Assembly (NCBI GenBank): GCA_003158175.1
Contig: PMHJ01000031.1
Span: 1-64,000, forward strand
DNA: 64,000 nt
DNA from: Candidatus Cybelea septentrionalis
Lineage (GTDB): Bacteria > Vulcanimicrobiota > Vulcanimicrobiia > Vulcanimicrobiales > Vulcanimicrobiaceae
Reading direction: 5' to 3'
In this document: positions 18,479-40,683 of the stretch, one piece after another
Numbering within the stretch: the stretch's first letter is position 1
Layout: each line of letters starts with the position of its first letter
Notes under the pieces: model-generated
Databases searched by the model: none
Seen by the model: the letters and a program-made list of their open reading frames with translations, nothing else
What the model was told of the DNA's origin: nothing
Program-made: the position numbers and the translations under genes

Positions 18479-19414
18479 ATGAGCGAACTGCTGGACCGTC
18501 CCCTGCGAACGGCAATCTTGGCGGCCGCGGACAATCCGATCGTGCGCCGCGGCGTGACCCGCTACGGCATGCGCTTTGGCGCGCGCCGTTTCGTCGCGGG
18601 CGAGAGCATCGCGGATTTCTTGCCGGTTGCTCGCGACGCAAACCGGCGGGGCTTCTCGGTCGCAGCGACGCTGCTCGGTGAAAGCATCCGCCATGCGGAG
18701 CAAGCACGCGACGTTGCCGACGAGTACTGCCGGCTCTTGCAAGCCTTTGCGCAGGAAAGGCTTGATGCCAACGTCGCGTTTAAGCTAACGCACGTCGGCC
18801 TCGATATCAGGCCCGAGCTCGCGCTCGAAAATGCATCGCGCATCGCGGCGCAGGCCCAAGCGACGAATAACACCGTGCGGCTCGACATGGAACAATCGAG
18901 TTATGTCGACGCAACCTTGCGGATTTATCGCACTCTCCAAGCGCGCTACGGCTGCGCCGGCTTCGTCCTGCAATCGTATCTCTATCGCAGCGAGTCGGAC
19001 CTGGACGCGGTGCTGCCGTCCGCGCCGAACGTTCGCATCGTCAAAGGCGCCTATCTCGAGCCAGCGTCGCTGGCCTTCCCTCACAAGCGTGACGTTGACG
19101 AAAACTATGTCAAGCTCGCGGAGCTCGCGCTTTCGCACGACGGTTACACGGCCATCGCGACGCACGATGCGGCGATCGTGGCTCGCATCGAAGAGTTCGC
19201 CGCGGCCCGCGGATTGCCAAAACGCGGCCGCTTCGAGTTTCAAACCCTCTATGGTATCGCCGAGCCGCTCGCGCGTGGCCTCGTCGAGCGAGGATACCGC
19301 GTGCGGCTTTCGGTGCCGTACGGGTCGTTTTGGTTTCCGTATTTGATGCGCCGCTTGGCCGAGCGCCCCGCAAACGTCGCCTTCTTTCTCAAGAACGCCT
19401 TCGCGCCGCGATGA
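18479..19414 (+). CDS. Proline (or hydroxyproline) dehydrogenase
   Basis: 311-aa stand-alone FAD-dependent PRODH with a TIM-barrel fold, oxidising L-proline to pyrroline-5-carboxylate. The monofunctional type is marked by NVAFKLTHVGLDI, RLDMEQSSYVDATL, GFVLQSYLYRSESDL, RIVKGAYLEP, FEFQTLYGIAEPL and the C-terminal RLSVPYGSFWFPYLMRRLAERPAN. It has no PutA P5C dehydrogenase domain. Its stop overlaps the DHDPS-family gene by 4 bases, which suggests a shared pathway and raises hydroxyproline as an alternative substrate. Confidence 0.92.
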   Translation: MSELLDRPLRTAILAAADNPIVRRGVTRYGMRFGARRFVAGESIADFLPVARDANRRGFSVAATLLGESIRHAEQARDVADEYCRLLQAFAQERLDANVAFKLTHVGLDIRPELALENASRIAAQAQATNNTVRLDMEQSSYVDATLRIYRTLQARYGCAGFVLQSYLYRSESDLDAVLPSAPNVRIVKGAYLEPASLAFPHKRDVDENYVKLAELALSHDGYTAIATHDAAIVARIEEFAAARGLPKRGRFEFQTLYGIAEPLARGLVERGYRVRLSVPYGSFWFPYLMRRLAERPANVAFFLKNAFAPR

Positions 19415-20310
19415 GCATCATCGCTGGGATCTGGGCAGCGGCGCTCACGCCCGTCACCGGAGATCTTGAACCCGACGCGGCTAAAGCCATCAGCTATTGT
19501 CGCGAGCTGCTCGAAAACGGCTGCGACGGGATCAACGTTCTTGGAACGACGGGCGAGGCGATGTCGTTTAGCGTCGAGCAGCGCGTGCAATACATGCGAA
19601 CGCTAGCGTCGAGCGGCCTGCCGATGGCACGAATGATGGCCGGGACCGGCGCGGCAGCGCTCGACGACGCCGTCGACCTGACGCGCACTGCGCTCGCTTG
19701 CGGCTTCGCCGCGACGTTGATCATGCCGCCCTTCTTTTATCGCGAAGCATCCGACGACGGAGTCGTCGCGTTCTTCGAAGCTCTGATCGCTCGCGCGAAG
19801 CCGCCGCGCAGAAGCGTGCTGCTCTATAACTTTCCTCGGATGAGCGGGGTCGTTCTGCATGCCGATCTCGTCGATCGGCTCGTCGCGGCATCGGGCGACC
19901 GCATCTTTGGAATGAAAGATAGTTCCAACGACGCGCGCCTGCAGGCCGAAGTTATTGCGCGCTTCCCCGGATTGTCGATCTTTCCCGGCTCGGAGCTCGA
20001 TCTGGCAGAAGCGAAGAAGCGCGGGGCCACCGGATGTATCTCGGGAAGCGTTGCCCTGTGGCCGCAGTTGGCGAAGAACGTCTTCGAAAGCGGGGACGAG
20101 GCGCAAGCCTCGGAGCTAGGCCGTCGTCGGGCGTTGCTTGACGGCGTACCGCTCGTCGGCGCGATGCGCTATCTCGTCGCGTCGCTGCGCGGCGAGCCCG
20201 AATGGGAGCGCGCGATGCCACCGCAAGAGGCGCTCTCGGTGGAGCAGCGGGAAAGGCTCGATCGCGCGTTAGCGTCGGTCCGGGATGCGGAGACGATCGT
20301 TTCTCAGTGA
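19411..20310 (+). CDS. Dihydrodipicolinate synthase / N-acetylneuraminate lyase family aldolase
   Basis: 299-aa Schiff-base TIM-barrel lyase. Key residues are visible: the GTTGE loop (Thr46-Thr47), the catalytic Tyr139 in LLYNFP and Lys169 in GMKDSS. The start ATG 19411 overlaps the PRODH stop (ATGA). Translational coupling to PRODH argues against lysine biosynthesis. It better fits 4-hydroxy-2-oxoglutarate aldolase or pyrroline-4-hydroxy-2-carboxylate deaminase, both members of this family in hydroxyproline breakdown. That assignment is inference. The 3' end overlaps the convergent propeller gene by 42 bases. Confidence 0.85.
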   Translation: MSIIAGIWAAALTPVTGDLEPDAAKAISYCRELLENGCDGINVLGTTGEAMSFSVEQRVQYMRTLASSGLPMARMMAGTGAAALDDAVDLTRTALACGFAATLIMPPFFYREASDDGVVAFFEALIARAKPPRRSVLLYNFPRMSGVVLHADLVDRLVAASGDRIFGMKDSSNDARLQAEVIARFPGLSIFPGSELDLAEAKKRGATGCISGSVALWPQLAKNVFESGDEAQASELGRRRALLDGVPLVGAMRYLVASLRGEPEWERAMPPQEALSVEQRERLDRALASVRDAETIVSQ

Positions 20311-21765
20311 GTACGCGGTGAGGTTACCGCTCTCATCGGAGCAGTACACCGAGCCGTTGACCACGATCGGGCTCTGCCAGTGAATTCCCCCGATCGTGCC
20401 GCCGGCGTTATGGTTGGCACTGCTCCAAAGCTCGCTCCCGCTAAGTGCGTTGAGCGCGACGATCGCGCCGTCGAACGCAACGAAGACGATGCCGTTGGCA
20501 ACAACGGGCGACGAACCCTCACCGTAACTGCTCCCCGGGCTCGCCTGCCAGATGCCGGCGAGCTCGCTAACGCCGGACTTGTTCGTCTTGAGCCGATAGG
20601 CCGTCACTTCGTTGCTGAATCCTAAGAAGACCCAGGCGTTGTTCGATGCATCGGTCCAAACCGCGGGAGCGGAGAAGAGGCCGCCGGGCAGATCGACGAG
20701 CTGCAGTTCGCCTCCGACGCCGGGCAGCGCGGCGCGATTGAGCAGCTTGAGTATCGCGTCCTTTCCGCCTTCGACGATCATGTACGGCGTCTGGCTCGTC
20801 GCTTGATCCGGCAAAATCCCCGGCGACGAGCTTCCCAAGTCGGTGTCGCCTTCCTGGAGTTGTTTATAATCGGTGGGCGTGTAACTTCCGAGCAGGTTTG
20901 AAAGGTCGGCACTGAGCGACAAGAGCGTGTCGCCGTAGTTATCGCCGCCGTGCGCTGCATCGAACTGACCGTTTCCGGTCGCGGCGTAAATGCGCCCGTC
21001 CATCGAGGAATCCGGGTCCACGACCGCGCCCCCGCGCCCCCAAATCCCCGATCGCTGTTGCGCGCACGAATGCGCTCTGACGAGTTTGCGGTACTTGCTG
21101 CAAAGGGAGTTGAAGATGGTCGTCTTCCCGGTGCTCAGGTCGACGGCGACGACGTGGCCGTCGTATGGGGGTGCGTCGCCGTTGTAACCCGACGTGACCG
21201 CGTAGAGGTATCCGTTGGCGACGTTGAGCGGGGATGCGTCCTTCTCGGTTAAGGGCAAGAGCGTGATGCGCACGGGAAATCCCGCCGCACGTTGCTCGTG
21301 GCCCGTTGCCGCGGAGAGCCTATGTACCATGCCGTCGATGCCGGGGACGTAGATACTGGTTCCCGACGGGTCTGCGGCCGGTGTGGAATCGGTGACGGTC
21401 GAACCGTGCGTCCTAAAGCGCCAGCGGATCTTGCCGGTGGTCGCTTCGATGCCGAGCGTTACGCCGTCGATCCTCGTCTGGAAGAGCATCGGCATCTCTG
21501 CGCGCCCGATCCGAACGTGTTCGAGCAGAATGGGCGTTGAATCCGCGACGGCGCCGAGCGAAACTTGCCACCGTTTGTGCAAGCGATGGACGTTGCCGAC
21601 GGTCAGCGTGCGTTCGTTCGAGTTGAACCCACTGCGCGCCGTATCGAAGCCGAAGAGCGGCCAATCCGTCGCGAAGGCGGGATGAAGCGCCGCAACGAGA
21701 AGCCCGGCTACGAAAGCCGCCGTTGAAAAAACTCTGATGGTGGGCGAGGAATACGAATGTCGCAC
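20269..21765 (-). CDS. Secreted PQQ-type beta-propeller protein (copy B)
   Basis: 498-aa exported protein with signal peptide (AAFVAGLLVAALHPAFA). The mature part is an eight-blade quinoprotein-like propeller beginning DWPLFGFDTARSGFN, with blades NVHRLHKRWQVSLG, YVPGIDGMVHRLSAATG, YAATGNGQFDA and VYCSDESGNLTAYSLR. The pattern resembles PQQ-dehydrogenase barrels, but there is no cytochrome domain and the PQQ-contact residues are not obvious. It is a tandem duplicate of the gene at 21771-23213 with only 5 bases between stop and start. Function unknown; envelope localisation is likely. Confidence 0.8.
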   Translation of the reverse strand: MRHSYSSPTIRVFSTAAFVAGLLVAALHPAFATDWPLFGFDTARSGFNSNERTLTVGNVHRLHKRWQVSLGAVADSTPILLEHVRIGRAEMPMLFQTRIDGVTLGIEATTGKIRWRFRTHGSTVTDSTPAADPSGTSIYVPGIDGMVHRLSAATGHEQRAAGFPVRITLLPLTEKDASPLNVANGYLYAVTSGYNGDAPPYDGHVVAVDLSTGKTTIFNSLCSKYRKLVRAHSCAQQRSGIWGRGGAVVDPDSSMDGRIYAATGNGQFDAAHGGDNYGDTLLSLSADLSNLLGSYTPTDYKQLQEGDTDLGSSSPGILPDQATSQTPYMIVEGGKDAILKLLNRAALPGVGGELQLVDLPGGLFSAPAVWTDASNNAWVFLGFSNEVTAYRLKTNKSGVSELAGIWQASPGSSYGEGSSPVVANGIVFVAFDGAIVALNALSGSELWSSANHNAGGTIGGIHWQSPIVVNGSVYCSDESGNLTAYSLRNDRLRIPDRR

Positions 21766-21770
21766 CGGCG

Positions 21771-23213
21771 TTACCTCAGAGAATATGCAGTGAGATTACC
21801 GCTTTCATCAGAGCAGTAGACCGACCCGTTGACCACGATCGGACTTTGCCAGTGAATCGATCCAATATTGCCGTGGGCGCTCTTTAGGGCGCTGCTCCAG
21901 AGTTCATTTCCATTGGCCGCGTTGAGCGCGACGAGCGCATCGTTGAACGCGACGAACACGATGCCGTTGGCGACGACCGGCGACGAGCCCTCACCCGAGC
22001 TGTTGCCGGGACTCACCTGCCAGCCACTCGCGAGCTGGCTGACTCCCGACGGGTTCGTTTGCAACTGGTACGACACAACCTCGCTGCTGAACCCAAGAAA
22101 TATCCAGGCGTTGTTCGAGCCGTTGGTCCAGACGGCCGGAGCGGAGAAGAGGCCGCCGGGCAGGTCGACCTCTTGCAATTCGCCGCCGAGGCCGGGAAGC
22201 GCCGCGCGGTTGAGTAATCGCAAGATGGCGTCTTTGCCTCCCTGCACGATCATGTACGGAGTCTGGCTCGATGCTTGGTCGGGCAGAATTCCCGGCGACG
22301 AGCTTCCGAGATCGGTGTCGCCGTTTTCGAGCTGCTGATAATCGGTCGGCGTGTAACTGCCGAGCAGGCCTGAGAGATCTTCGCCGAGCGACAAGAGCGA
22401 GTCGCCGTAGTTATCGCCGCCCGAGCCGGCATCGAACTGGCCGTTTCCGGTAGAGGCGTAGATTCGGCCATTCATCGACGAATCCGGATCGACGACGGCG
22501 CCGCCACGTCCCCAAATTCCCGAGCGCTGCTGCGAGCAGGTGTTCGCTTTGATCAGCTTCCGATAGGTGCTGCAAAGCGAGTTGAAAACGGTGGTCTTAC
22601 CGGTGCTCAGGTCGACGGCGACGACATGGCCGTCATAAGGCGGCGCGTCACCGTAATAACCCGACGTGACCGCATAGAGATAGCCGTTGGCGACGTTGAG
22701 CGGGGATGCGTCCTTCTCGGTTAAGGGCAGGCGCGTGATCCGCGCCGGAAATCCCGGCGCGTGCTCCTCGCGGCCCTTTGCCGCGGAAACCTTGTGCACC
22801 TTACCGTCGATGCCGGGAACGTAGATGCTCCTGCCCGACGGGTCCGCGGCCGGCGTCGAATTGGTAACGGTCGAACCGTGCGTCGTAAAATGCCAAACGA
22901 TCTTGCCGTTTCTTGCGTCGATGCCGAGCGTCACGCCGTTCTTTGTGGTTTGAAAGAGCATCGGGATCTCTTCGCGGCCGACTCGGACCTTATCGAGAAG
23001 AATCGGTGTCGAATCTGCGTCGGCGCCGAGCGAAACTTGCCACCGCTCGCGCAAGCGGTGGACGTTTCCGACGGTCAATGTGTGTTCGGCGGTATTGAAT
23101 CCGCTGCGAGCCGGGTCGAACCCGAATACCGGCCAACTCGTCGCACCGGCGGGCAGAAGCGTCCCGGAGAGGAGGCCGGCGACGGCGGCCAACGTCAAGA
23201 GTGATCTGGCCAT
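21771..23213 (-). CDS. Secreted PQQ-type beta-propeller protein (copy A)
   Basis: 480-aa exported propeller with signal peptide (LLTLAAVAGLLSGTLLPAGA) and mature start SWPVFGFDPARSGFNTAEHTLT. It is very similar to copy B along its whole length. Shared strings include EKDASPLNVANGYLYAVTSG, SGIWGRGGAVVDPDSSM and GSSSPGILPDQA, so the pair is a recent tandem duplication. Copy A is upstream and so is probably transcribed first. Cysteines in SLCSTYRKLIKANTCSQQRSG may form a disulphide and are conserved in copy B. No catalytic assignment is possible. Confidence 0.8.
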   Translation of the reverse strand: MARSLLTLAAVAGLLSGTLLPAGATSWPVFGFDPARSGFNTAEHTLTVGNVHRLRERWQVSLGADADSTPILLDKVRVGREEIPMLFQTTKNGVTLGIDARNGKIVWHFTTHGSTVTNSTPAADPSGRSIYVPGIDGKVHKVSAAKGREEHAPGFPARITRLPLTEKDASPLNVANGYLYAVTSGYYGDAPPYDGHVVAVDLSTGKTTVFNSLCSTYRKLIKANTCSQQRSGIWGRGGAVVDPDSSMNGRIYASTGNGQFDAGSGGDNYGDSLLSLGEDLSGLLGSYTPTDYQQLENGDTDLGSSSPGILPDQASSQTPYMIVQGGKDAILRLLNRAALPGLGGELQEVDLPGGLFSAPAVWTNGSNNAWIFLGFSSEVVSYQLQTNPSGVSQLASGWQVSPGNSSGEGSSPVVANGIVFVAFNDALVALNAANGNELWSSALKSAHGNIGSIHWQSPIVVNGSVYCSDESGNLTAYSLR

Positions 23214-23251
23214 GGCGAGGACTTCGGCGCGTAGGCCGTCAAGGTCTGCTC

Positions 23252-24076
23252 ATGACGGAGCCGAGCAACGAATCGAATTTGACGCCGCCCGTCCAGAGCG
23301 TCGTCGAGGACGTGCCGGGCTGGCAGCAAGTCCAACCGCGCATTCCCGACACGCTGCAGCGCCGGACCCTTGAGAAGCGACGCAGCATTCGCGAAATCGT
23401 TTTCGGAGTGCAGGACGGCATCCTCACGACGCTCGGGATCATTACCGGCGTCGGAGTCGCCGAGGGCGATCGCGGGGCCGTTTTCATCAGCGGATTTCTC
23501 GCGCTGCTGGCGGGCGCGCTTTCGATGGGCGTTGGGGAATATCTCGGGCGCAAGTCCGAGCGCGAGGTCGTGCAAGCCACGATCGACATGGAAAAGCGCG
23601 AGATGGAGAGCGATCCGCAGGGCGAGTTCACGGAGCAGGTAGCGTACTATAAGCTCAAAGGCTTCAGCGCGGAAGAAGCGGAGATGATCGTCAGGCGCTT
23701 GACCCAACACCCGGAGATCTATCTCTACGAGATGGTGCGCGACGAGTTCGGCATCGATCCGCGTGAAGCCGAGAATTCGGATCTGTTGCGGGCGCCGCTT
23801 GCGATGAGCGGCTCCTACGCGATCGGATCCCTCGTTCCGATCCTCGCGTTCATGCTGCCGTTGCCGGTTGTTGGATCGACGCTCGTATCGCTGCTCTTTG
23901 CACTGGGCGCGCTCTTTGCCGTCGGATACTTTGCCGCCACGCTCAGCGAGCGCAATCCGCTCGGCAAGGGCGCCGAAGTCGCGCTGTATGGCTGCGCCGT
24001 CTTCGCGCTCTCGTATCTCGTCGGCCATTTTATTCCACCGCTCTTCGGCCACGCACCGGTTCCCATTGGCGGCTAG
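23252..24076 (+). CDS. VIT1/CCC1 family Fe2+/Mn2+ transporter
   Basis: 274-aa membrane protein of the CCC1/VIT family, which moves Fe2+/Mn2+ by proton antiport. RRSIREIVFGVQDGILTTLGIITGV is the family signature of helix 1. The long cytoplasmic Glu-rich metal-binding domain follows helix 2 (EYLGRKSEREVVQATIDMEKREMES to DPREAEN), then three C-terminal helices. I chose ATG 23252 (AAGG box upstream). It overlaps the permease gene by 11 bases, starting a three-gene coupled operon divergent from the propeller pair. Confidence 0.88.
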   Translation: MTEPSNESNLTPPVQSVVEDVPGWQQVQPRIPDTLQRRTLEKRRSIREIVFGVQDGILTTLGIITGVGVAEGDRGAVFISGFLALLAGALSMGVGEYLGRKSEREVVQATIDMEKREMESDPQGEFTEQVAYYKLKGFSAEEAEMIVRRLTQHPEIYLYEMVRDEFGIDPREAENSDLLRAPLAMSGSYAIGSLVPILAFMLPLPVVGSTLVSLLFALGALFAVGYFAATLSERNPLGKGAEVALYGCAVFALSYLVGHFIPPLFGHAPVPIGG

Positions 24077-25190
24077 TCTGGCCCAGGCGTTAGCAGCGGG
24101 CATCCTCCAAGCGGCAACGTTCTTTTGGGATAGCCTCTTTGGCTTGATCTTTGGATTTCTCGTCTCCGCCATCGTCCAAGTGATGTTGACGCCGGCCACG
24201 CTGGAGCGCTACCTGGGGCCAGGTCTGCGAGGGTTGCTTTACGGCGCGGGGTTCGGCGTGATTTCGTCATCCTGTTCGTACGGGGCGGCCGCCGCGTCGC
24301 GCGGATTCTATCGCAGCGGGGCCGATATCCGATCCGTCTTTGCGTTCCTCATCTCGTCGACAAACATGAATCTCGCGATTCTGATTCTGTTTTGGTCGCT
24401 GTTGGGCTGGAGGTTCGCCTTCGCCGAGTTCTTCGGAGGCGTCATCATCATCGCCGTCGTGACCCTCGGCCTTTCAATATTCTTCGGCAACGAGCAGCTC
24501 GCACGGCTGCAGCGCGAGTACATCCTTCCCCTGAGCCTGTCGAAGGGTCAGGATGGCAACCGGCAAGGTCAGGATGACAATGCTGAAGGCTGCGAGCATC
24601 ACCAGATGGGGGGGCCGATGGAACGCAGCTGGAGCGCGGTCGCAAAAACCGCGATGGCGGACGTGCGAATGCTGCGCACCGAGCTGATCGTGGGCTATCT
24701 GATTGCGGGCTTTGCTGCGGCGCTCATTCCGTCCGGCGCGCTCGCCGCGGCGTTGCGCGCGGTCGGCTCCGTGCCCTTTATCGGTTACGTGCTGCTGCTG
24801 ATCGTTGGGCTGTTGATCGCGGTCGCGACCTTCGTCTGCTCGATGGGCAACGTCCCGGTCGCGCGATATCTCGCCAATGCCGGCATCCCTTTGGGCGCCA
24901 ACACCACGTTTATCTACGGCGACCTTCTGATTCTGCCGCTGATCGCAATTTATCGCAAATCGTTTCCCGACCGCATCACGTGGGCGTTCGTCGGCCTTTT
25001 TGTCGCCGGCGCGATGCTCGCGGGCGCAATAATGGAACGGGTCATCGGCAGCGGAGCCGCAGCCATGACGGCTGCTTCAATGACGCTCAACGACCGCTTT
25101 ACGCTCATTTCGAATATCGTGGCGCTGGCGGCAGTCGCCGTGCTGGCGGTTGCGACGCTTGGGAGCAAAGCACGAGGAAAGGCTTCGTGA
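24066..25190 (+). CDS. ArsP/DUF318-type permease with an in-frame repeat insertion
   Basis: About 374-aa polytopic permease of the ArsP_1 (PF03773-like) family. The two half-repeat signatures are GAGFGVISSSCSYGAAAASRGFYRSGADIRSVFAFLISSTN and ATFVCSMGNVPVARYLANAGIPLGANTTFIYGDLLILPLI. These permeases export metal(loid) or organoarsenical species; the substrate here is unknown. TTG 24066 is inferred, because homology begins there. Between the two halves about 23 residues (from LSLSKGQDGN to GQDDNAEG) are encoded by a dispersed genomic repeat. Stop overlaps the next gene by 4 bases. Confidence 0.82.
   Translation: MAASLAQALAAGILQAATFFWDSLFGLIFGFLVSAIVQVMLTPATLERYLGPGLRGLLYGAGFGVISSSCSYGAAAASRGFYRSGADIRSVFAFLISSTNMNLAILILFWSLLGWRFAFAEFFGGVIIIAVVTLGLSIFFGNEQLARLQREYILPLSLSKGQDGNRQGQDDNAEGCEHHQMGGPMERSWSAVAKTAMADVRMLRTELIVGYLIAGFAAALIPSGALAAALRAVGSVPFIGYVLLLIVGLLIAVATFVCSMGNVPVARYLANAGIPLGANTTFIYGDLLILPLIAIYRKSFPDRITWAFVGLFVAGAMLAGAIMERVIGSGAAAMTAASMTLNDRFTLISNIVALAAVAVLAVATLGSKARGKAS
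24521..24589. repeat. Dispersed palindromic repeat inside the permease coding sequence
   Basis: Core CTGAGCCTGTCGAAGG (24531-24546) is identical, in the opposite orientation, to the core at 27845-27860. TCAGGATGACAATG (24569-24582) is identical to the reverse complement of 33001-33014. The element is in frame and sits in the loop between the two permease halves. Confidence 0.75.
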
Positions 25191-26269
25191 ATCGAGTTTG
25201 GCGTTCCGCGGCGTCGGCGCTGCTTGCTGTCGTCACGGGCTGCGGCGGCCAGATGAGTTCCGTGCCGGCCCTCTCGACCGCAGCGACGAGCGGCGCCGCG
25301 CGCTCGCTGCAGCGGTGGCGCAACGATATCGGCCCCCGGTATCAGTGGAACCACAACTATGGCTATTGCGGTGAGGTATCGGAAATCAGCGCCGGCTTGT
25401 ATTACGGTCAATATCTCTCGCAATACGATGCGCGCGCCGCGGCGGACGCCACACCGCAGAACCGTTATCGCAGTCAGTTGCTGCTCGGAGTCAACGCGCT
25501 GCGCGCCGCCGAGAAGATGCACCTCCGCGCGATCGGCCGGAACGGACGATTCAATAGAAGTCCCGATGACTTTCTGGAGTGGGTCAAGGAGAACGTACTG
25601 CTCGGGCGCCCGGTCGCCATCGGAATTTACATGAACCAGTTTCGATTCTACGGCAGCCGCAATCCGAATGCAGGTTCGCCGCAATACGATCATATTGTCC
25701 CGGTCATCGGCATCGGCTCCTACCACTCGCGCGACGAGCCCGGCTATTTTCCCGACGACGTGATCGCGTTCAGCGACAACGGCGAGTGGAGCTCGAGCCG
25801 GCGCGACGCACAATATTATTTTAGCTATGCGTTCTCGGCGTTCCAAAAGACGCGGCGCGAAGCCAACGCTCACGATGGTCCGATCTACTCGCTTACCGAC
25901 GACCACCGTGACTTCGGCATCGCGATCCTCGGCGTGCAAGACGAGGACAAAGAGACACTCCCGGTACGGGTGACCACGAATATCAACTACGAGCATCCGC
26001 AGATCGTGCAGGGGTCGGCCAGGCGTCCTCCGCCGGAGCCTCTGGAGCTAACGATTACGGTTTCGGGACTGACGCAGGGAACGAAATACGACCTCTATCG
26101 TTACAACACGCTCGAGTCGATTCCGAACGGCGCCTTCAACAAGCACGGGTCGAGGGCATACGAAAAGTGGGTGATCGCCGGGCGCGCCGACGGCAAGTTC
26201 GTGATGACCGAAAAGATCATGTCCGACGACGTCGCCGCCTATCGAGCAGTCCCCGCCGGCGCGCCGTAG
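25187..26269 (+). CDS. Lipoprotein with papain/C39-like peptidase features
   Basis: 360-aa exported protein. GTG 25187 gives a signal peptide ending in the lipobox VVTGC. NYGYCGEVSEISAGLYYGQYLSQYDA resembles a cysteine-peptidase helix (Cys followed by a helix), and YDHIVPVIGIGSY supplies a candidate catalytic His, with later NGEW strands. This pattern is of the C39-like superfamily; activity is not proven. A C-terminal beta domain (LELTITVSGLTQGTKYDLYRYN) follows. It overlaps the permease stop by 4 bases, so it is the third gene of the operon with VIT and the permease. Confidence 0.6.
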   Translation: MNRVWRSAASALLAVVTGCGGQMSSVPALSTAATSGAARSLQRWRNDIGPRYQWNHNYGYCGEVSEISAGLYYGQYLSQYDARAAADATPQNRYRSQLLLGVNALRAAEKMHLRAIGRNGRFNRSPDDFLEWVKENVLLGRPVAIGIYMNQFRFYGSRNPNAGSPQYDHIVPVIGIGSYHSRDEPGYFPDDVIAFSDNGEWSSSRRDAQYYFSYAFSAFQKTRREANAHDGPIYSLTDDHRDFGIAILGVQDEDKETLPVRVTTNINYEHPQIVQGSARRPPPEPLELTITVSGLTQGTKYDLYRYNTLESIPNGAFNKHGSRAYEKWVIAGRADGKFVMTEKIMSDDVAAYRAVPAGAP

Positions 26270-26272
26270 TCG

Positions 26273-27772
26273 TTATTCGGGGTCGCCGTGCGAAACCGCC
26301 TCGCGGTGCGTGATAAAATACCGCGCGTCGTGCTGCGACGGAATAACGGTAAAGGAGCGAGGCTTCTGATTGTAGTTGAAGCAGTCGACAATGCTGGTCG
26401 CCCGCTTGTCCGTCGTTCCCAGCGAGCCCAGACCGAAATTGTTCTCGACGTATTTTAGAATGCTGCCGAACTCGTACGGGGTAGCCGCGATATAACCACC
26501 CTGGCTCGATTGACCCAACTTTGCGTATGGCGAGACGACGATCATCGGTACGCGCAATCCGAGGCCGCCCTGGTCGTCGCGGCATTGCGATTTGGAGAGG
26601 CAAGGGGGCGCAGCGTTATCGTAGAGGCCGCCCCAGTCGTCCCATAGGATGACGATCGCCGTCGAGTTCCAGTACGAACTCTGTCCGACGGCGTTCACGA
26701 CGCTGGCGACCCAAGCGGGGCCGTCGTCGACGGGGCCGTCACCGATATGATCGGAGTTTTTATCCTCCGGAATCACCCAAGAAACGGCGGGTAGCGACCC
26801 GCTGGAGATGTCGCCGAAGATGTTGGTCTCCGGCATGGAGACGTTCGTGCCCCACTCGGGACCGTTGCGCACAGGCCAGATCACATCGAACGCATTGAGA
26901 AGGTCGCCTGCGCAGCTAGGGCACTTCGAGTCCACGGTGCAGCCATCCGACTTGCTGAAGCACGGCGTGTAGTATTTCCACGAAACCTTTGCCGCGTCGA
27001 GCAGGTCGCGCAGCGTCTGATAACTGGAACTGCCGTCCGGAAAATCTTTCGTACACGGGGCCGGACCGGCATCCAGCTCCCACTTGAGTGAGGTCGTCAC
27101 GAGATCCGTTTGGCTGTTAGGATTTCCGTCGCAGCCCCAAGGCTCTTGGGTGGGCGTATCGATCATGCTCGCGCCGCTGCCATACGAGCCGTCCAGCGCC
27201 GAACCGCCGCGGATCAAATCTTGATGCGCCGTGAAGCTGCCGCTGCCTTGGGTCTGGAACATTGCGTCGGCGAGCACGTACTGCTCTGCCATATCCCAAT
27301 ACGGAGCGATGTCAGCCGGATTGACGTATTGGTATGGATACAGGCTCGACGGCCCTCCGCTCCAGCTACGGGGGCAATAGTTTTCGGGTTCGTGGTTGAA
27401 CCCGTCCATCTTTCCACCGTCATAGGCTTTAATGAACGAGTAGTAGCAATGGCCGATGTCATGGTTTGGCGACGGCAGCAACGACTGCTCTTTGAGTTGA
27501 ACCCACTCGTCGACCCATTTGCCGCCTTTTTTAATCCTCGCTTTGCCGCGCATGGTGCCGTTGGCTCCCGGAAAACCCGCGAAGAGGTTGTTGAAGGTGC
27601 GGTTCTCCTGAACGATCATGACGACGTGCTCGATTGGCGAGCTTCCCGAGTGCTGCTGAAGGAATGGGCTATTCGGAAGCGCCTGCGGACTGCCGGCGCC
27701 GCCGCATGCTGCCAGAACCGTCGTCGCCACGACGGCAAGGAATGAAAATCGACCAAAGTCTACGACTCTCAT
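26273..27772 (-). CDS. Phospholipase C / acid phosphatase (AcpA-like) lipoprotein
   Basis: 499-aa exported phosphoesterase of the PF04185 type in the alkaline-phosphatase superfamily. A lipobox VLAACGG follows the signal peptide. The metal/nucleophile motif is in IEHVVMIVQENRTFNNLFAGFPG, and later ligands are in AIVILWDDWGGLYDN and LRVPMIVVSPYAK, with SKADGCTV-type Cys pairs likely forming disulphides. It would cleave phosphate esters or phospholipids outside the cytoplasm. It is convergent to the C39-like gene with 3 bases between, and a repeat copy is upstream. Confidence 0.88.
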   Translation of the reverse strand: MRVVDFGRFSFLAVVATTVLAACGGAGSPQALPNSPFLQQHSGSSPIEHVVMIVQENRTFNNLFAGFPGANGTMRGKARIKKGGKWVDEWVQLKEQSLLPSPNHDIGHCYYSFIKAYDGGKMDGFNHEPENYCPRSWSGGPSSLYPYQYVNPADIAPYWDMAEQYVLADAMFQTQGSGSFTAHQDLIRGGSALDGSYGSGASMIDTPTQEPWGCDGNPNSQTDLVTTSLKWELDAGPAPCTKDFPDGSSSYQTLRDLLDAAKVSWKYYTPCFSKSDGCTVDSKCPSCAGDLLNAFDVIWPVRNGPEWGTNVSMPETNIFGDISSGSLPAVSWVIPEDKNSDHIGDGPVDDGPAWVASVVNAVGQSSYWNSTAIVILWDDWGGLYDNAAPPCLSKSQCRDDQGGLGLRVPMIVVSPYAKLGQSSQGGYIAATPYEFGSILKYVENNFGLGSLGTTDKRATSIVDCFNYNQKPRSFTVIPSQHDARYFITHREAVSHGDPE

Positions 27773-27840
27773 AGGCTCCTTCCTAAAGGACGAAGGCTTA
27801 TAGTTTCGACGCCGAGGCGCTTCCGACTTGTTATCTTTTG

Positions 27841-27912
27841 TTATCCTTCGACAGGCTCAGGATCACGCTCGACAAAGCTTGTCCTGAGCGTAGTCCAAGG
27901 GCTCAGGATGAG
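27841..27912. repeat. Intergenic copy of the dispersed palindromic repeat
   Basis: The 193-base gap between the phosphoesterase and the small membrane-protein gene holds two inverted half-copies: CCTTCGACAGGCTCAGGATC (27846-27865) and CTTGTCCTGAGCGTAGTCCA (27879-27898), then GCTCAGGATGAG. The arms can fold into a long hairpin. Nothing else is apparent in the gap. Confidence 0.75.
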
Positions 27913-27965
27913 ATGGCCCAAGCGGGCCGCCGGTTGCGGATTTCGTTTTTTGGGTAATCTGCAGC

Positions 27966-28154
27966 ATGCCTCTGATTGAAATCGTCATCGTGCTGATCGT
28001 CGTCGGGGTTCTCTTGTGGCTGGTCAACACGTACATTCCGATGGCCGGCCCGATCAAATCGCTCTTAAATGCCGTCGTCGTCATCGTTATGGTCGTCTGG
28101 ATCCTCAAGGTTTTCGGCCTCTGGCACTACATCACTCACATTCGCGCCGGATAA
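27966..28154 (+). CDS. Thivi_2564-family small membrane protein
   Basis: 62-aa protein with two membrane helices: IEIVIVLIVVGVLLWLVNTYI and SLLNAVVVIVMVVWILKVFGLW, separated by the short PMAGPIK loop. The family is widespread and of unknown function. The ATG at 27966 follows the repeat region; the stop is 2 bases before the proposed GGT start, so they may be co-transcribed. Conservation of the YIPM.G.IK loop supports a real gene despite the short length. Confidence 0.85.
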   Translation: MPLIEIVIVLIVVGVLLWLVNTYIPMAGPIKSLLNAVVVIVMVVWILKVFGLWHYITHIRAG

Positions 28155-28156
28155 GG

Positions 28157-29686
28157 CTGCTCGGCACCCTTCTCGCGGCGCTCCTGACCGGCGCGACGGC
28201 GCGTCACGCGATGGTCGCAACCGCGCACCACGACGCCACGCAGGCCGGCGTTAGCATCTTGCGCGCCGGCGGTAATGCGGTGGACGCCGCGATTGCCGTC
28301 GCCTACGCGCTCGCGGTGGTCGACCCGTGCTGCGGGAACATCGGCGGCGGTGGTTTCATGTTGATTCGCCTGCGCGACGGGCGCGAGCGCTTTCTCGACT
28401 TTCGCGAGACGGCGCCGCTGCGCGCTACCCCCGCGATGTTTCTCGACCGCTACGGCAACGTTCGGACGCAAGCGTCCCGCAAGGGTTGGCTGGCGGTCGG
28501 CGTACCCGGAACGGTGGCGGGAATGGAGACGGCGCGACGCGAGTTCGCAACGATGTCGAGGCCGCGTTTGATGGCGCCCGCCATCGCGCTCGCCGATCAG
28601 TTTAATCCGCAGCTCGCTCGCACACTTTCGCTCATCGCAAATGACGGCTCCGATGCGTTCTATCGCGGACCGATTGCGCTTGCGATCGTACGGGCAAGCA
28701 ACGCACACGGCGGCATTCTCGCGCTGCGTGATTTTTCGGAGTATCGGGTTGAAGAGCCGCAGCCGATTCACTGCACGTTCGGCGGCTACGACCTCATCTC
28801 GGCGCCCCCGCCCAGCTCGGGCGGCGTGACGCTCTGCGAGATCCTCAATATTCTGGCGCCGTATCCGCTGCAGGCCTGGGGCTGGCACGACCTGCGCTTC
28901 CTGCACTATGCGACCGAGGCCGAGCGGCGCGCCTTTGCGGATCGGAACGCCTATCTCGGTGATCCCGATTTCGTTTCGAATCCGGTGACGCAACTGCTCG
29001 CCCCGTCGTATGCCGCCAAACTGCGCTCGGAGTTTTTGCCGGACCGCGCGACGCCTTCAAGTGAGGTGCGTCCCGGACTCGGCGCGGTGGCGAAGGAAGG
29101 AGAAGACACGACGCATTACTCGATCGTCGATCGTTGGGGAAACGCGGTCGCCGTCACCTACACGCTCAACGACTCGTTCGGCGCCGGCGTCGTCGCGGGC
29201 GAGACCGGGTTTCTCTTGAACGACGAGATGGATGACTTTACGTCCAAACCAGGTGTAGCGAATATGTACGGGCTCGTGCAGGGCGAGCGCAACGCGATCG
29301 AGCCGGGCAAACGGCCGCTCTCGTCGATGACGCCGACGATCGTGACACAGCGCGGCATGCTGAGGATGGTCACCGGCAGCCCCGGCGGCCCTCGGATCGT
29401 TACGACGACGCTCGAGACGCTGCTCGACGTACTCGAATATGGCATGAGCGCGCAGACTGCGGTCGACGCGCCTCGCACGCACATGCAGTGGCTGCCCGAC
29501 GAGCTGGAGTATGAGCCGGGCGCTTTCAATGTCGAGACGGCGCGCGCGTTGCAGCAAATGGGATATGCGCTAAACGAAGTCCCGAAATGGGGCTCAGCGC
29601 AGGCGGTTGTTGTAAACCCCCAGACCGGCTTGCTCGAAGGCGGCAGCGACCGGCGCACTCCGGCGGGGTCCGCCGCCGGGTATTGA
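28157..29686 (+). CDS. ggt: Gamma-glutamyltransferase
   Basis: About 509-aa Ntn-hydrolase that transfers or hydrolyses the gamma-glutamyl group of glutathione in the periplasm. The N-terminal signal-like LLGTLLAALLTGATA precedes the family opening MVATAHHDATQAGVSILRAGGNAVDAAIA. The autocatalytic Thr is in EDTTHYSIVD (about residue 318). GFLLNDEMDDF, PLSSMTPTIV and TGSPGG are the substrate motifs. The start is uncertain: CTG 28157 is proposed because no ATG/GTG precedes the signal, and ATG 28211 would remove it. Confidence 0.88.
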   Translation: MLGTLLAALLTGATARHAMVATAHHDATQAGVSILRAGGNAVDAAIAVAYALAVVDPCCGNIGGGGFMLIRLRDGRERFLDFRETAPLRATPAMFLDRYGNVRTQASRKGWLAVGVPGTVAGMETARREFATMSRPRLMAPAIALADQFNPQLARTLSLIANDGSDAFYRGPIALAIVRASNAHGGILALRDFSEYRVEEPQPIHCTFGGYDLISAPPPSSGGVTLCEILNILAPYPLQAWGWHDLRFLHYATEAERRAFADRNAYLGDPDFVSNPVTQLLAPSYAAKLRSEFLPDRATPSSEVRPGLGAVAKEGEDTTHYSIVDRWGNAVAVTYTLNDSFGAGVVAGETGFLLNDEMDDFTSKPGVANMYGLVQGERNAIEPGKRPLSSMTPTIVTQRGMLRMVTGSPGGPRIVTTTLETLLDVLEYGMSAQTAVDAPRTHMQWLPDELEYEPGAFNVETARALQQMGYALNEVPKWGSAQAVVVNPQTGLLEGGSDRRTPAGSAAGY

Positions 29687-29741
29687 GGCCCGGTATTGAG
29701 AAGGACGGGTGAGAACCTTTTTCGTCGGATAGGAGAAACGG

Positions 29742-30710
29742 ATGAAACGTGGTCTCGTTCTTATAAGCACTCTCGTAGCGGTTGCGTTCTTTCTAGCGTC
29801 TTCGCCCTTCGCAGCGGCGGCCCCGAGCGGTTTAGCTTGGGATTCGGTTTCGAAGCTGTCGATGACCACCGACCCGTCTGCGCTACAGCCGGGCTCGTTC
29901 GAGGACGACTATTCCGCCGCGGCATCGGCACAGCCGCCGGCTCAGGGAGGTGGGGGACTCTTAGGCCACTTCAAGCAGCAAATCGCGATGGCCCAGAATG
30001 CGCAGCAGATGATGCAGAGCGGTATGGCGGAGAAGCACTACGTCGCCGGTTCGAAAGAGCGCACCGACATGGTCACGGTGCAGACTGCAATAATTACGGA
30101 CTGCGTGGCGCGCACGATTACCACGCTGAATCTTCGCAACAAGACCTATCGTGTGGTCTCGATGGACCAGCCGAGTGCCCCGGCTTCGGGCGGAGGCAGC
30201 ACCGGCGGATCGATGCCGAAGGACGACGGCTCGAAAATCGCTATCGTCGTTGCCAATAGCGTACTCGGTGCACGCGCGGTGGGAGGCGAGCAGACCAACG
30301 GCTACCGCTCCGACATGACGTTCACCGAAACGAAGCCGACCGGCGAATCGAATACGCAGAACGCGAACTTAATCGGGTACTACACGGCTTTCACACAGCC
30401 GTTCCCTCACTGCTCCGGGAGCGGCGCGTGGTCCGGCGATTCGATGTCGCCAGCTCAGGGCTTGGCGATGATGGCCGCCGCCTCAAAGATGATGCGGGAG
30501 CTGGCGACCGCCGGACTCGACAAACGGTTTACCCTCAAGCAGAGTGGGCCGGCGTTGCCGTTCGTCAACTTCTCGATGTACCAAGCCATCACGTTTACCG
30601 CGAAGAACGGCCAGGGCGCGGCCTTCGTCACCGAGCGCGGGCACGTTCACCCGGTCGACGCAAACGATCCGGCCTTCAGCATTCCCAGCGACTTCACGAA
30701 GGAGCAGTAA
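29742..30710 (+). CDS. Secreted protein of unknown function
   Basis: 322-aa protein with a clear signal peptide (MKRGLVLISTLVAVAFFLASSPFAAAA) and an AGGAG ribosome site at the right distance from ATG 29742. The mature part has a Gln/Met-rich helix (FKQQIAMAQNAQQMMQSGM), a repeating beta strand pattern (ERTDMVTVQTAIITDCVARTITTLNLRNKTYRVVS) and a Gly/Ser-rich linker around residue 150. I recognise no named family, though the strand pattern resembles DUF4412-type lipid-binding folds. It is convergent with the PYROXD2-like gene, stop next to stop. Confidence 0.65.
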   Translation: MKRGLVLISTLVAVAFFLASSPFAAAAPSGLAWDSVSKLSMTTDPSALQPGSFEDDYSAAASAQPPAQGGGGLLGHFKQQIAMAQNAQQMMQSGMAEKHYVAGSKERTDMVTVQTAIITDCVARTITTLNLRNKTYRVVSMDQPSAPASGGGSTGGSMPKDDGSKIAIVVANSVLGARAVGGEQTNGYRSDMTFTETKPTGESNTQNANLIGYYTAFTQPFPHCSGSGAWSGDSMSPAQGLAMMAAASKMMRELATAGLDKRFTLKQSGPALPFVNFSMYQAITFTAKNGQGAAFVTERGHVHPVDANDPAFSIPSDFTKEQ

Positions 30711-32300
30711 CTAGACTTTCCCTCGCAGCATGACGCGTGCGGCATTCCAGCCGGCCGCGCCCATCACGCCCCCGCCGGGATGCGCGGCCGCGCCGCAGAG
30801 ATAGAGCCCGCGAATCGGCGTCGTGTAGTCTGCAAAACCGGGAACGGGGCGAAACGCGAAGAGCTGATGCAGCGGCATCGCCCCTTGAAAGATGCTGCCG
30901 CCCGTGAGGCCGAACGTCGCTTCGAGATCCACGGGCGTGAGGATCTGACGGTCGATCACGGAGTCCTTGAACCCCGGCGCGTAACGTTCGACGACGTCAA
31001 AACAACGATCGGCATACTCGTTGCGCAGCGCGTCCGTCCACGGACCTTGCGCGAGGCGATACGGCGCGTACTGCGTAAACATCGACATTAGGTGCTTGCC
31101 CGGCGGCGCGACGGTCGAGTCGAGCGAGGACGGCATCGTGCACTCAACGACCGGCTCGCGCGAAAATCCGCCGTACTTCGCGTCGTCGTACGCGCGCTCG
31201 ATGAAGTCTTGGTCCGGGCAGAGATGCACGGTGCCGAAGTGTTGGGGACCAGGCTCGTGGCCTGGCAACGCGGTAAAGCTAGGCAGTCGCTCGAGTGCGA
31301 CGTTGATTTTACACGACGCGCTGCTGTACGAAATGCGAGCGACGGCATCGCGAAAGTCGTGCGGCAGCTCGGCCGGCTCGAGCAGCTGCTCGAAGGTTAC
31401 GTGGCAATCCACGCCGCTTGCAACGCGCTTGGCGTGAAACTCGTCGCCGTTCGTGAGTGCGACTCCGGTGACGCGACCGTCGCGGGTAAGAATACGCGCG
31501 ACTTCGGCCTCGGTCTTGATTTCCACGCCGAGCGCTCGCGCGGCGCTCGCGAGCGCCTGCGTCAGGCCGCCCATGCCGCCGCGCACATAACTCCAAACTC
31601 CTCGCTTGCCGTTCGTCTCGCCCATGACGTGATGAAAGAGGACGTAGGCGGTGCCCGGCATCGAGGGCGCCATAAACGCGCCGATGATCGCGTCGGTTGC
31701 GATCGTTCCTTTGAGCTCCTCCGATTCGAACCATCGGTCGAGTATCGGACGTGCCGCTCCTGTGAGAACTTCGATCGCTTCGCTCATTCCCGGTCCAAGT
31801 CGCTGCAGCGCGCGGCCCATCTTACCGGCCTCGAGCAGTTGACCGATATTCGGGCGAAGGACGTTGGGCGGAATCTGCGTGAGCGTCGGCTCGACGACCG
31901 ACGCGACGCGTTCGAGCATCGCCTCGTAGCGCGGATAGCTTTGAGCGTCGCGGGGACTGAACTTCGCGATTTCCTCGACGTCGCGCGCCGTGCCGGTTCC
32001 GAGCACCAGATAGCGACCGTCTAAGAAAGGTGAAAACGACGCCGGATTGCGCTCGATCGCTTCGAACCCGTACTCGTTCAAACGCAGATCCGCAATGATT
32101 TCGGGGCGGAAGAGGCTGTTCACGTAGGCTGCCGTCGAGACCTTGAAGCCGGGGAAGATTTCTTCGGTTACGCACGCGCCGCCGACGATATAGCGACGTT
32201 CGAGCACGAGAACGCGCCACTTCGCGCGAGCGAGATAGCACGCGGTCACGAGGCCGTTGTGGCCGCCGCCGATGACGATGGCGTCGTACGCCGGCTTCAA
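30711..32300 (-). CDS. PYROXD2/phytoene-desaturase-like FAD oxidoreductase
   Basis: 529-aa flavin-dependent amine-oxidase/CrtI-superfamily protein. The FAD-binding motif IVIGGGHNGLVTACYLARAKWRVLVLERR opens it, followed by GGACVTEEIFPGFKVSTAAYVNSLFRPEI, which is diagnostic of the PYROXD2 subgroup. The C-terminal FAD motif is GLYLCGAAAHPGGGVMGAAGWNAA. TTG 32300 is the start where homology begins; the frame stays open further upstream without similarity. It starts 14 bases after the Rieske gene stop and is probably co-transcribed with it. Substrate unknown; carotenoid desaturation is unlikely since no other crt gene is present. Confidence 0.85.
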   Translation of the reverse strand: MKPAYDAIVIGGGHNGLVTACYLARAKWRVLVLERRYIVGGACVTEEIFPGFKVSTAAYVNSLFRPEIIADLRLNEYGFEAIERNPASFSPFLDGRYLVLGTGTARDVEEIAKFSPRDAQSYPRYEAMLERVASVVEPTLTQIPPNVLRPNIGQLLEAGKMGRALQRLGPGMSEAIEVLTGAARPILDRWFESEELKGTIATDAIIGAFMAPSMPGTAYVLFHHVMGETNGKRGVWSYVRGGMGGLTQALASAARALGVEIKTEAEVARILTRDGRVTGVALTNGDEFHAKRVASGVDCHVTFEQLLEPAELPHDFRDAVARISYSSASCKINVALERLPSFTALPGHEPGPQHFGTVHLCPDQDFIERAYDDAKYGGFSREPVVECTMPSSLDSTVAPPGKHLMSMFTQYAPYRLAQGPWTDALRNEYADRCFDVVERYAPGFKDSVIDRQILTPVDLEATFGLTGGSIFQGAMPLHQLFAFRPVPGFADYTTPIRGLYLCGAAAHPGGGVMGAAGWNAARVMLRGKV

Positions 32301-32314
32301 ACGTTCACCGGCTC

Positions 32315-33490
32315 TTAAGCTCCCATGATCGAAAGGTAGTGGCGGTCGAAAGCGCTGAGCAAACCTTCGGCGTTCGAGTACGGCCCGGGCGAATACGCGC
32401 GCGAGTTCAAGCCCCGCTGTGTCAGCTCGTTGACGTGCCAATCTTGGCGATTCGTCAGGTCCCAAAACTCCACGACGTCGGTCGGATCGAAATCCGGCTT
32501 CGCCATCGCGTTCGGATCGAAAAGCCACGCGCAGACGACCTTCGTGAGATCGGCTGCCAGCGGCTTGCAGTAGTGCACCATCGCGTAGTCGGGATGGAGG
32601 CTCAGCAGCAGCGAGGGAAAGATCGTATAGTAGTAGACCCGATCGAGATCGTCGCCGCCGACGCTTCCCAACGGCTCGCGCGAACTCCGCCCGCTCGTCG
32701 TAAGACTTGTCCCGTGCTGGCGCAACTCGGAATACCCGCCCAGGAACGCTCCTTCCGAAAGGTCGTTATGTCCGCTATCCGAGGGCGAGAGCTTGTCGAG
32801 CTGCGGATGGACGAGCGGACAGTGGTAGCACTCCGAATAGTTGAGAAAGACGAGTTTCCAGTTGCACGCAAGCTCGTAGGTGATGCTTCGCGCCGTTTGC
32901 AGATTCTCGACGTTCCAACGCGAGAACCGCCCGATCAACGGCGCAAAAACTCGCTCGAACGTATCCTGACCCGGTCGCGTGTCATCCTGATTTGAGCTCC
33001 CATTGTCATCCTGAGCTTGTCGAAGGATGAGTGACGGTCTCAGGTTGATAAAAATGAAGCCTTCCCAAAGCGCGACCCTGGCTTCTTTGAGGGGATACCC
33101 GGCCGGGTCGAATCCCGGAACCTCCGCCATGTTGCGCGCAACCTTCAGCTTTCCGTCGAGCGCGTACGTCCAGGCGTGATACGGGCACTGGATCGATCCC
33201 GTAAAATGGCCTGACTCTTCGCTACAGAGACGCGTGCCCCGGTGGCGGCAGACGTTGTAGAACGCATGCACCGTGCCGCCGGCGTCGCGCGTGACGATCA
33301 GGCTTTCTCCGGCACGCTCTACCGTAAAGAAATCGCCCGCGCGCGGCAGCGATTCTTCGCGCCCGACGCAGAGCCACTCGGAGCGGAAGATTCGCTCCTG
33401 TTCCTGGGCAAACACGTCGGGCGAGATGTACCACGCGGCGGGCAGCGTCTTGGCGCCGGCGCCGACGCTCGGCCTTGCAAATATCTCCAT
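32315..33490 (-). CDS. Rieske non-heme iron oxygenase alpha subunit (GbcA/CntA-like)
   Basis: 391-aa oxygenase. The Rieske cluster ligands are C81/H83 (NVCRHRG) and C102/H105 (QCPYHAW). The mononuclear Fe site is in LNYSECYHCPLVHPQL (His223, His228), with the electron-bridge Glu220. The layout matches quaternary-amine oxygenases such as glycine-betaine or carnitine monooxygenase, rather than ring-hydroxylating enzymes. Residues about 153-176 are an in-frame copy of the dispersed repeat, inserted between the Rieske and catalytic domains. A reductase partner is not in the window. It is divergent from the sarcosine-oxidase-like gene. Confidence 0.87.
   Translation of the reverse strand: MEIFARPSVGAGAKTLPAAWYISPDVFAQEQERIFRSEWLCVGREESLPRAGDFFTVERAGESLIVTRDAGGTVHAFYNVCRHRGTRLCSEESGHFTGSIQCPYHAWTYALDGKLKVARNMAEVPGFDPAGYPLKEARVALWEGFIFINLRPSLILRQAQDDNGSSNQDDTRPGQDTFERVFAPLIGRFSRWNVENLQTARSITYELACNWKLVFLNYSECYHCPLVHPQLDKLSPSDSGHNDLSEGAFLGGYSELRQHGTSLTTSGRSSREPLGSVGGDDLDRVYYYTIFPSLLLSLHPDYAMVHYCKPLAADLTKVVCAWLFDPNAMAKPDFDPTDVVEFWDLTNRQDWHVNELTQRGLNSRAYSPGPYSNAEGLLSAFDRHYLSIMGA
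32961..33042. repeat. Dispersed palindromic repeat inside the Rieske oxygenase coding sequence
   Basis: CTGAGCTTGTCGAAGG (33011-33026) differs by one base from the core at 24531. On the coding (minus) strand it continues as TCAGGATGACAATG, then a second AATCAGGATGACACG and GGTCAGGATACG, so the unit is partially repeated. Length keeps the reading frame. Confidence 0.75.
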
Positions 33491-37057: not shown

Positions 37058-37194
37058 GATTGCTCCTCAAAGAAAGAAAGTTTGGGTGACTAGGGCTGAT
37101 GGTAGCAGCGCCGGCGTACGGAAACGTCCGGGCGGCCGGGAGGCGGCCGCCGGATTCGAGAAGGCCAAATCGGGAGGGCAAAGCCGTCGCCAAC

Positions 37195-40100: not shown

Positions 40101-40683
40101 GCGCGGACGAGTCGGGGGGCTCTCCAATCTCATCTTTATGAGGGCCTACACCGGACAGATCGCCGGTGCGCGTCAAGCGGCCGAGTCGGCGCTCAACCTT
40201 GCGCACGAACTCGGCTTCGGGTTGATCGAGGCCTCGGTTCTCGAGAATCTCGCGTTTGCGGAGGCCAAGGCCGGCGATTACGCGCGAGCGATCGAGCTCA
40301 CCGAGGCGTCGTTCGAGTTGCGTTCGCAATCCGAATCACAAGTCTGGTCGAGCACGACACTTGCCAACTTCGCGATCTGGCACGCGGCGCTCGGTAATCT
40401 GCCGGCTGCACGCGATGCGGTACGACGGCTGCTCGCCGCCGACGAGACGATTATGCGCGCCACCGATTGGCCCACGCACTGCTACTGGGCGGCGGCGCAG
40501 ATCTTCCACGCCGGCGGGGAGTCCGCCGAGGCGACCAGCGCGCTCGAGCAAGCGAAGCGCATGATGCTTGCGGCGGCCGAGGGCCTCGAGCCCGAAGATC
40601 GCGAGAGCTTCTTGGCGCTTCCGTGGCACGTCGATCTGGCAAAGGCGGTCAAAGCGGGCGTGTGGCCGGATCCGCCTAGATAG
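37195..40683 (+). CDS. Giant transcriptional regulator: BTAD-AAA-TPR (SARP/MalT-like), first copy
   Basis: About 1162 aa. The N-terminal OmpR-like/SARP DNA-binding module (LEFRLFGHLEVALDG...TPRKSLQVLTYLLLHRG) is followed by a bacterial transcriptional activator (BTAD) TPR domain (ALYRGDLLPEVYDEWLD type). The AAA_16 ATPase has Walker A GGEPGIGKSR and Walker B LLLILEDLHWAQPAS. The C-terminal half is tandem TPR-like helices (HRGHLSAAEALLDEA and similar). There is no LuxR HTH at the C terminus. GTG 37195 was chosen; ATG 37099 would add 32 Arg/Pro-rich residues without homology. A signal-integrating STAND-like activator, input unknown. Confidence 0.85.
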   Translation: MSELRAPAAKTRGRLEFRLFGHLEVALDGDRFTLATPRKSLQVLTYLLLHRGTPVSREYLAFLLYPDDEEGAARAKLRATLSELPKILPQPSEQYVSIETDKVGWNPDADVWVDIDAFVAASGDRSRLGEAIGLYRGDLLPEVYDEWLDVIRERHRATYLRCLTELASEARRNANLALAIETARKVLAIDPWREDMVRRIIAMRYESGDGAGALSEYAAFAKRLRVDMGADPMPETAAAAERIARGEDVAEEGVEDRPAIEGGSAILPFVGRRDEMERLLEAWSRVARGRGACAFVGGEPGIGKSRMVSEFAHAVEDRGGRVLVGATSSPESVPYESVVDSLRSALPLVASLKPSIALASVATLLPEIHARVALPAVPRLDAESERIRLFESLFRCIADLAKPRPLLLILEDLHWAQPASIELLQFLLRRVAGVRVMIVVTYRDEESLRLHAFHRLRREARVVAGAQSMWLSPLSVADVEEMRATLPDMRDRAAETLIAASQGNPLFLTHLVAEVREGERDREPISLQAVVARRIERLSENARTAAEIAACIGDRFSRDAVREVSAWDEAALTDSLDELLDRRIIREAAGRGFLEYAFTHHLVQDTIAGAVPAKAAAIRRRRVARVLERIYPERVPELSASLAAHYEFAGDVANATRCYLEAVRRSISIGALHEARMQCARGLAIAIEPRTRADLLLESVTIETRSGDLESRNAALLALERVDSELDDPAIHRATLLHRMEFASTTGDRAMHEQAARALRACVPDDDGRWNAELHLAESQMAFTLGRLAESFDSGKAALAYSRAANDDARATRALCFLAQVEAHRGHLSAAEALLDEAAKDAARAADPMLEQLALSSAYTVAYQRRDIRRCHALSSRCLELAVKLGDRLAEAQAHGRLGATLADTGAKYAEAREHYAAASRIYRESGYLAGSAGQLLNQAILEMRLGFFERACAATEKAVALFERANDARGRVGGLSNLIFMRAYTGQIAGARQAAESALNLAHELGFGLIEASVLENLAFAEAKAGDYARAIELTEASFELRSQSESQVWSSTTLANFAIWHAALGNLPAARDAVRRLLAADETIMRATDWPTHCYWAAAQIFHAGGESAEATSALEQAKRMMLAAAEGLEPEDRESFLALPWHVDLAKAVKAGVWPDPPR

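Follow-up and report, generated by a model that had tools for sequence, protein, structure and literature searches.

Do three overlapping genes encoding a metal transporter, a permease and a lipoprotein constitute a single system? This question is raised by a locus of the soil bacterium Candidatus Cybelea septentrionalis that lies in the 64,000-nucleotide stretch analysed here (the window), itself part of a 118-kb contig in a 3.19-Mb draft genome. A sequence-only reading of this DNA had proposed that a CCC1/VIT transporter, an ArsP-type permease and a C39-like lipoprotein are strictly co-translated and form a candidate uncharacterised system. The comparative analysis described below points to a different arrangement, which we consider likely: a conserved two-gene VIT-ArsP metal-efflux operon, followed by a slot of variable content that here holds an independent accessory gene.

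Organization of the locus

Gene 1 (23252..24076, forward strand) encodes a VIT/CCC1-family transporter of 274 residues from an ATG start, the position of which is uncertain, as an in-frame GTG at 23201 would add 17 residues. Gene 2 (24066..25190, forward strand) encodes an ArsP_1 permease of 374 residues from a TTG start, and gene 3 (25187..26269, forward strand) a predicted lipoprotein of 360 residues from a GTG start. The three reading frames were confirmed, as were the overlaps of 11 bases between genes 1 and 2 and of 4 bases, of the GTGA type, between genes 2 and 3. Short overlaps, above all those of the GTGA type, are common in bacterial operons, and are therefore weak evidence for a shared system. 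The overlaps here suggest co-translation, but fall short of proof that it is strict, as had been claimed, and gene 3 has its own AGGAAAGG stretch directly 5' of its GTG. An Rfam scan of positions 19000-30000 gave no match at gathering score, and in promoter and terminator scans the number of matches did not exceed that in shuffled sequences. The GC content of gene 3 (0.613, versus 0.625 for the window) shows no sign of foreign origin or recent import.

A tandem pair of PQQ-type beta-propeller genes lies on the reverse strand at 20269-23213, divergent from the VIT gene, and the two share 75% identity across a stretch of 300 bases; the one adjoining the pair spans 21771..23213. At least one PQQ-type gene was observed near VIT in all nine genomes of the genus with flanks read, two ORFs lying between them in G050, and none was found in the fetched stretches of G108 and G073. 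Elsewhere in the window, a degenerate 32-base repeat occurs seven times (45553-45707) within a Tyr/Gly-rich ORF of 163 residues on the reverse strand. Two ORFs of about 1,200 residues, 15.6 kb apart (37099-40683 and 52717-56337), contain DNA stretches that are 71-72% identical, and are possibly paralogues.

Distribution of the VIT-ArsP pair

Each of the three proteins was used as a query against a set of 149 genomes from the phylum, among them that of the window (G000), with matches accepted at E values up to 1e-10 for VIT and ArsP and up to 0.001 for the lipoprotein. VIT was found in 119 of these genomes, ArsP in 67 and the lipoprotein in 6. In 21 genomes the VIT and ArsP genes were direct neighbours on the same strand, namely in all 18 of the window's genus (G000 and G037-G053) and in three from two other genera (G072, G073 and G108). 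Among the 67 ArsP-bearing genomes, 46 have no VIT gene beside ArsP; three of these 46 (G033, G057 and G077) gave good matches to both proteins, on different contigs. No paper joining VIT1 and an ArsP permease in one operon was found in a literature search, and in a search for YraQ/DUF318 neither word occurred in the 20 matches listed of 232.

Flanks were read for 11 of the 21 pair loci, the window included, and the other 10 were covered to 60 bases past ArsP; a protein search did not find the lipoprotein in the 10 draft genomes to which the latter belong. The contig of G038 ends within ArsP, which leaves 10 loci with a readable downstream side. The gene following ArsP encodes the lipoprotein in two of these (G000 and G053) and something else in eight. 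In G037, G052 and G041 it is a convergent phosphoesterase-like gene; its product is an oxidoreductase in G108, subtilase-like in G051 and Tad-like in G050; in G073 and G039 the products have no Pfam match and do not resemble each other. Gene calling in these flanks relied on a simple script with a minimum of 70 residues, which shorter genes would escape.

Properties of the two transporters

The family assignments made for genes 1 and 2 hold. The VIT protein scores 182.5 bits against Pfam VIT1 (cut-off 28.1), the domain spanning residues 46-259, and the permease scores 173.4 bits against ArsP_1 (cut-off 32.3), both far above the cut-offs. The VIT protein was found to match the EgVIT1 structure 6iu3 with an E value of 7.4e-21, and 8 of the 10 key residues of EgVIT1 are retained, as judged by eye on the alignment and with an EgVIT1 numbering that depends on an inferred offset of 21. 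The scores of the permease against the NCBIfam equivalogs for SO_0444 Cu/Zn efflux (61.6 bits; cut-off 300) and for SaoE efflux (52.6 bits; cut-off 325) fall far below the cut-offs, and no match to a solved structure was obtained up to an E value of 0.1. In the ArsP alignment, Cys70 is present in 23 of 23 rows; Cys258 is found in 20 of 21, and many of the rows have a Cys/His-rich loop.

The ArsP gene also carries, at 24529..24547, a dispersed repeat core (CCTTCGACARGCTCAGG) that belongs to an in-frame insertion located in a loop. Further cores of this repeat lie in the window at 27845-27861 and 33010-33026, and the core was observed at 93 exact places in the draft genome, versus none for the backwards pattern. 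No paper containing the repeat strings was found in a literature search.

The pair is most simply read as a dual metal-export operon. The VIT-family protein would probably capture Fe2+, and perhaps Mn2+, at a cytoplasmic glutamate/methionine site and move it out of the cytoplasm. The ArsP_1 permease would probably export a softer metal or metalloid, such as Cu, Zn or organic As(III), by way of the two conserved cysteines and the Cys/His loop found in many of its relatives.

Presence, absence and history of gene 3

The VIT-ArsP-lipoprotein order was found in 2 of the 149 genomes, those of the window and G053, both of the same genus, and the other 19 pair-bearing genomes carry VIT-ArsP without gene 3. 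Within these 149 the order recurs in one genome besides that of the window, so that it comes close to occurring nowhere else. In G052 the site is empty, with the phosphoesterase gene starting within a few bases of the end of ArsP. In G037 it is gapped, the DNA equivalent to window positions 25154-26270 being absent, a gap that takes in the lipoprotein gene and, at the end of ArsP, about 12 codons. A tree of the 5' flank groups G037 with G000, with G053 next to branch (support 0.98), whereas a tree of the 3' flank groups G037 with G053 (0.90); G052 falls outside these three genomes in both. The repeat insertion in ArsP is common to G000 and G037 and absent from G053, G052 and G051, which favours the 5' flank tree. 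Most simply, gene 3 predates the divergence of G037 and was then lost in that genome. Between G000 and G053, the dN/dS ratio of gene 3 was calculated to be 0.17 over 272 codons (0.065 for VIT); such purifying selection indicates that gene 3 is probably a working gene.

Outside the genus, homologues were found in G108, G073, G057 and G140. No VIT or ArsP match was detected in the stretches of 13-15 kb around them, and the four stretches have no common neighbour besides the homologue itself; the adjacent gene encodes an aspartyl protease in G108 and an enoyl-CoA hydratase in G057, and in G073 its product gave no significant match. An unannotated homologue, 46.9% identical and with one internal stop codon, was also found in Ensifer adhaerens OV14, on its conjugative plasmid pOV14c (locus L084, 7974-9074), the only record matched among 72,556 plasmid records. 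A pattern-based scan of species genomes, which finds close relatives only, returned one locus, on the G053 contig. A phage origin was rejected, as tblastn gave no match in 50,697 phage records, and none of the eight stretches of viral contigs that fitted a search pattern proved to be a relative. It can be imagined that the gene 3 family consists of unnamed secreted papain-like hydrolases mobile among bacteria as distant as Eremiobacterota and the host of a rhizobial plasmid, and that one member was captured recently behind a metal-efflux operon, its output following metal stress, with a real functional link in the two genomes; we regard this scenario as very unlikely.

Is the gene 3 product a cysteine hydrolase?

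Neither Pfam nor NCBIfam gave a match above cut-off for the window lipoprotein. A signal peptide and a lipobox Cys, the features expected of a bacterial lipoprotein, were found, the lipobox (VTGC19) having been identified by eye. The Cys19 column is invariant in all six aligned homologues, two of which are incomplete (G053 and G140); the box of G140 is atypical, and the Ensifer copy lacks such a Cys. Gln53, Cys61, His169 and Asp197 are likewise invariant in the six and, by eye, present in the Ensifer copy, so that all homologues seen retain them, down to 41% identity. A candidate for the catalytic Cys-His pair of a papain-like protein is present at the sequence level (Cys61 and His169). The four codons begin at 25343, 25367, 25691 and 25775 (25343..25777, forward strand), and the residues could form an active site of the papain/C39 type.

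The designation of the protein as C39-like has modest support from these residues and from matches to Peptidase_C39_2 (PF13529) just short of the cut-off of 24 bits in four of seven homologues (G108, 23.9 bits; Ensifer copy, first part, 23.2; G057, 20.9; G073, 19.0). The window protein itself gave no Pfam match to this family; nor did those of G053 and G140. When the gene 3 family was compared with 14 C39_2 proteins from the phylum, hhalign returned a probability of 1.5, and a local HMM built from the 14 scored 0.8 bits at best. AlphaFold models based on the window sequence and locus L009 had mean pLDDT values of 37.1 (one sequence) and 32.5 (two sequences) and were unusable.

Several candidate structural matches were rejected. 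A single-sequence search of solved structures returned an LRRTM chain, the E value of which (1.9e-5) came from 16 residues with no stretch passing alone, and other repeat proteins, which were also discarded; in a profile search, fibronectin chains matched the C-terminal part with E values of 0.0026 and 0.0036, the best single stretch reaching 3.8. Separately, another gene of G000 (G000:C23:81758-82159), distinct from the lipoprotein gene, has a Peptidase_C39_2 match above cut-off, and such a gene was also found in 37 of the 41 relatives searched.

We hold with moderate confidence that the gene 3 product is a secreted papain/C39-like cysteine hydrolase, which is its most likely reading. That it is instead a secreted binding protein, C39-like or unrelated, without enzymatic activity is a less likely alternative that deserves to be kept in mind: it accords with the unusable fold models, the absence of a match above cut-off and the hhalign result, but would leave the invariance of Gln, Cys, His and Asp, maintained to 41% identity, to be explained. 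If the hydrolase reading is correct, the product would probably be lipid-anchored and act outside the cytoplasm.

One system, or a pair with an accessory gene?

Gene 3 is probably read from the same transcript as VIT-ArsP. We know of no mechanistic link between its product and the pumps. A true three-part system, in which the exporters cooperate with a secreted peptidase-like protein, for example if metal stress required the processing of a surface metal-binding protein, could account for the GTGA overlap with ArsP being kept between the window and G053 and for the purifying selection on gene 3. Such a system is difficult to reconcile with an order confined to two genomes of one genus, with the 19 genomes that carry the pair without gene 3, with the empty and gapped sites, and with homologues that have no VIT-ArsP nearby in G108, G073, G057 and G140. 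The single three-gene system originally proposed was accordingly rejected on the distribution of the genes among genomes, and we judge it highly improbable.

The pair itself could be a mere gene order common to close relatives rather than a functional operon, as the divergent PQQ-type gene and an oxidoreductase gene (30711-32528) also stay near it in several genomes. This is unlikely: VIT and ArsP are directly adjacent in G072, G073 and G108, which belong to two other genera, and the gene after ArsP differs in G073 and G108.

Overall, a conserved pair with an accessory gene behind it is supported by the adjacency of VIT and ArsP in 21 of 149 genomes with the lipoprotein linked in 2, by the other genes that follow ArsP at 8 of 10 loci, by the empty or gapped sites of G052 and G037, and by homologues elsewhere, and on the Ensifer plasmid, that have neither VIT/ArsP nor common neighbours. 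The 8 of 10 EgVIT1 residues, the conserved Cys70 and Cys258 of ArsP and the dN/dS ratio of 0.17 agree with this reading. Counted against it are the replacement of Glu72 by Ala in VIT, ArsP scores far under the Cu/Zn and SaoE cut-offs, the 46 of 67 genomes with ArsP lacking an adjacent VIT, a gene 3 composition that is not foreign, and the lack of a C39 match, profile or structure support for the window gene 3.

On the pair-plus-accessory reading, the VIT-ArsP pair for dual metal export is a unit that can be tested on its own, in a phylum for which metagenomes are the main source of knowledge, and the gene next to it may well have a different function. The locus also illustrates that an overlap between genes is not in itself the mark of a functional system. 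In addition, neither Pfam nor NCBIfam has a name for the lipoprotein family, and the homologues found here could serve to define it.

Comparison with known systems

How do the three proteins compare with characterized relatives? The gene 3 family resembles Peptidase_C39_2 in that, by ungapped count, the Gln and Cys of the four matching homologues lie close to positions 8 and 16 of the profile, and in two of them the His lies close to position 123; it differs in that its best homologue (23.9 bits) stays below the cut-off and the window protein has no match. Like plant EgVIT1, the VIT protein has equivalents of Asp43, Met80, Glu102, Glu105, Glu113, Glu116, Met149 and Glu153; unlike EgVIT1, it carries Ala in place of Glu72 and Val in place of Met150. 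An excerpt of PMC10794610 describes the ten residues as important in EgVIT1, with Glu72 being essential. Since this essential residue is Ala in the VIT protein, proton exchange is not to be assumed; MtVTL8 has Gly at the same position. Unlike bacterial MbfA, as presented in an excerpt of PMC7762939, the VIT protein contains no ferritin-like N-terminal domain. The window ArsP shares with ArsP_1 permeases a full-length domain match, a multi-spanning topology and conserved Cys residues. SO_0444 of Shewanella is needed for growth under Zn or Cu stress, according to an excerpt of PMC3219624. Unlike both ArsP_1 permeases and SO_0444, the window ArsP is paired with VIT.
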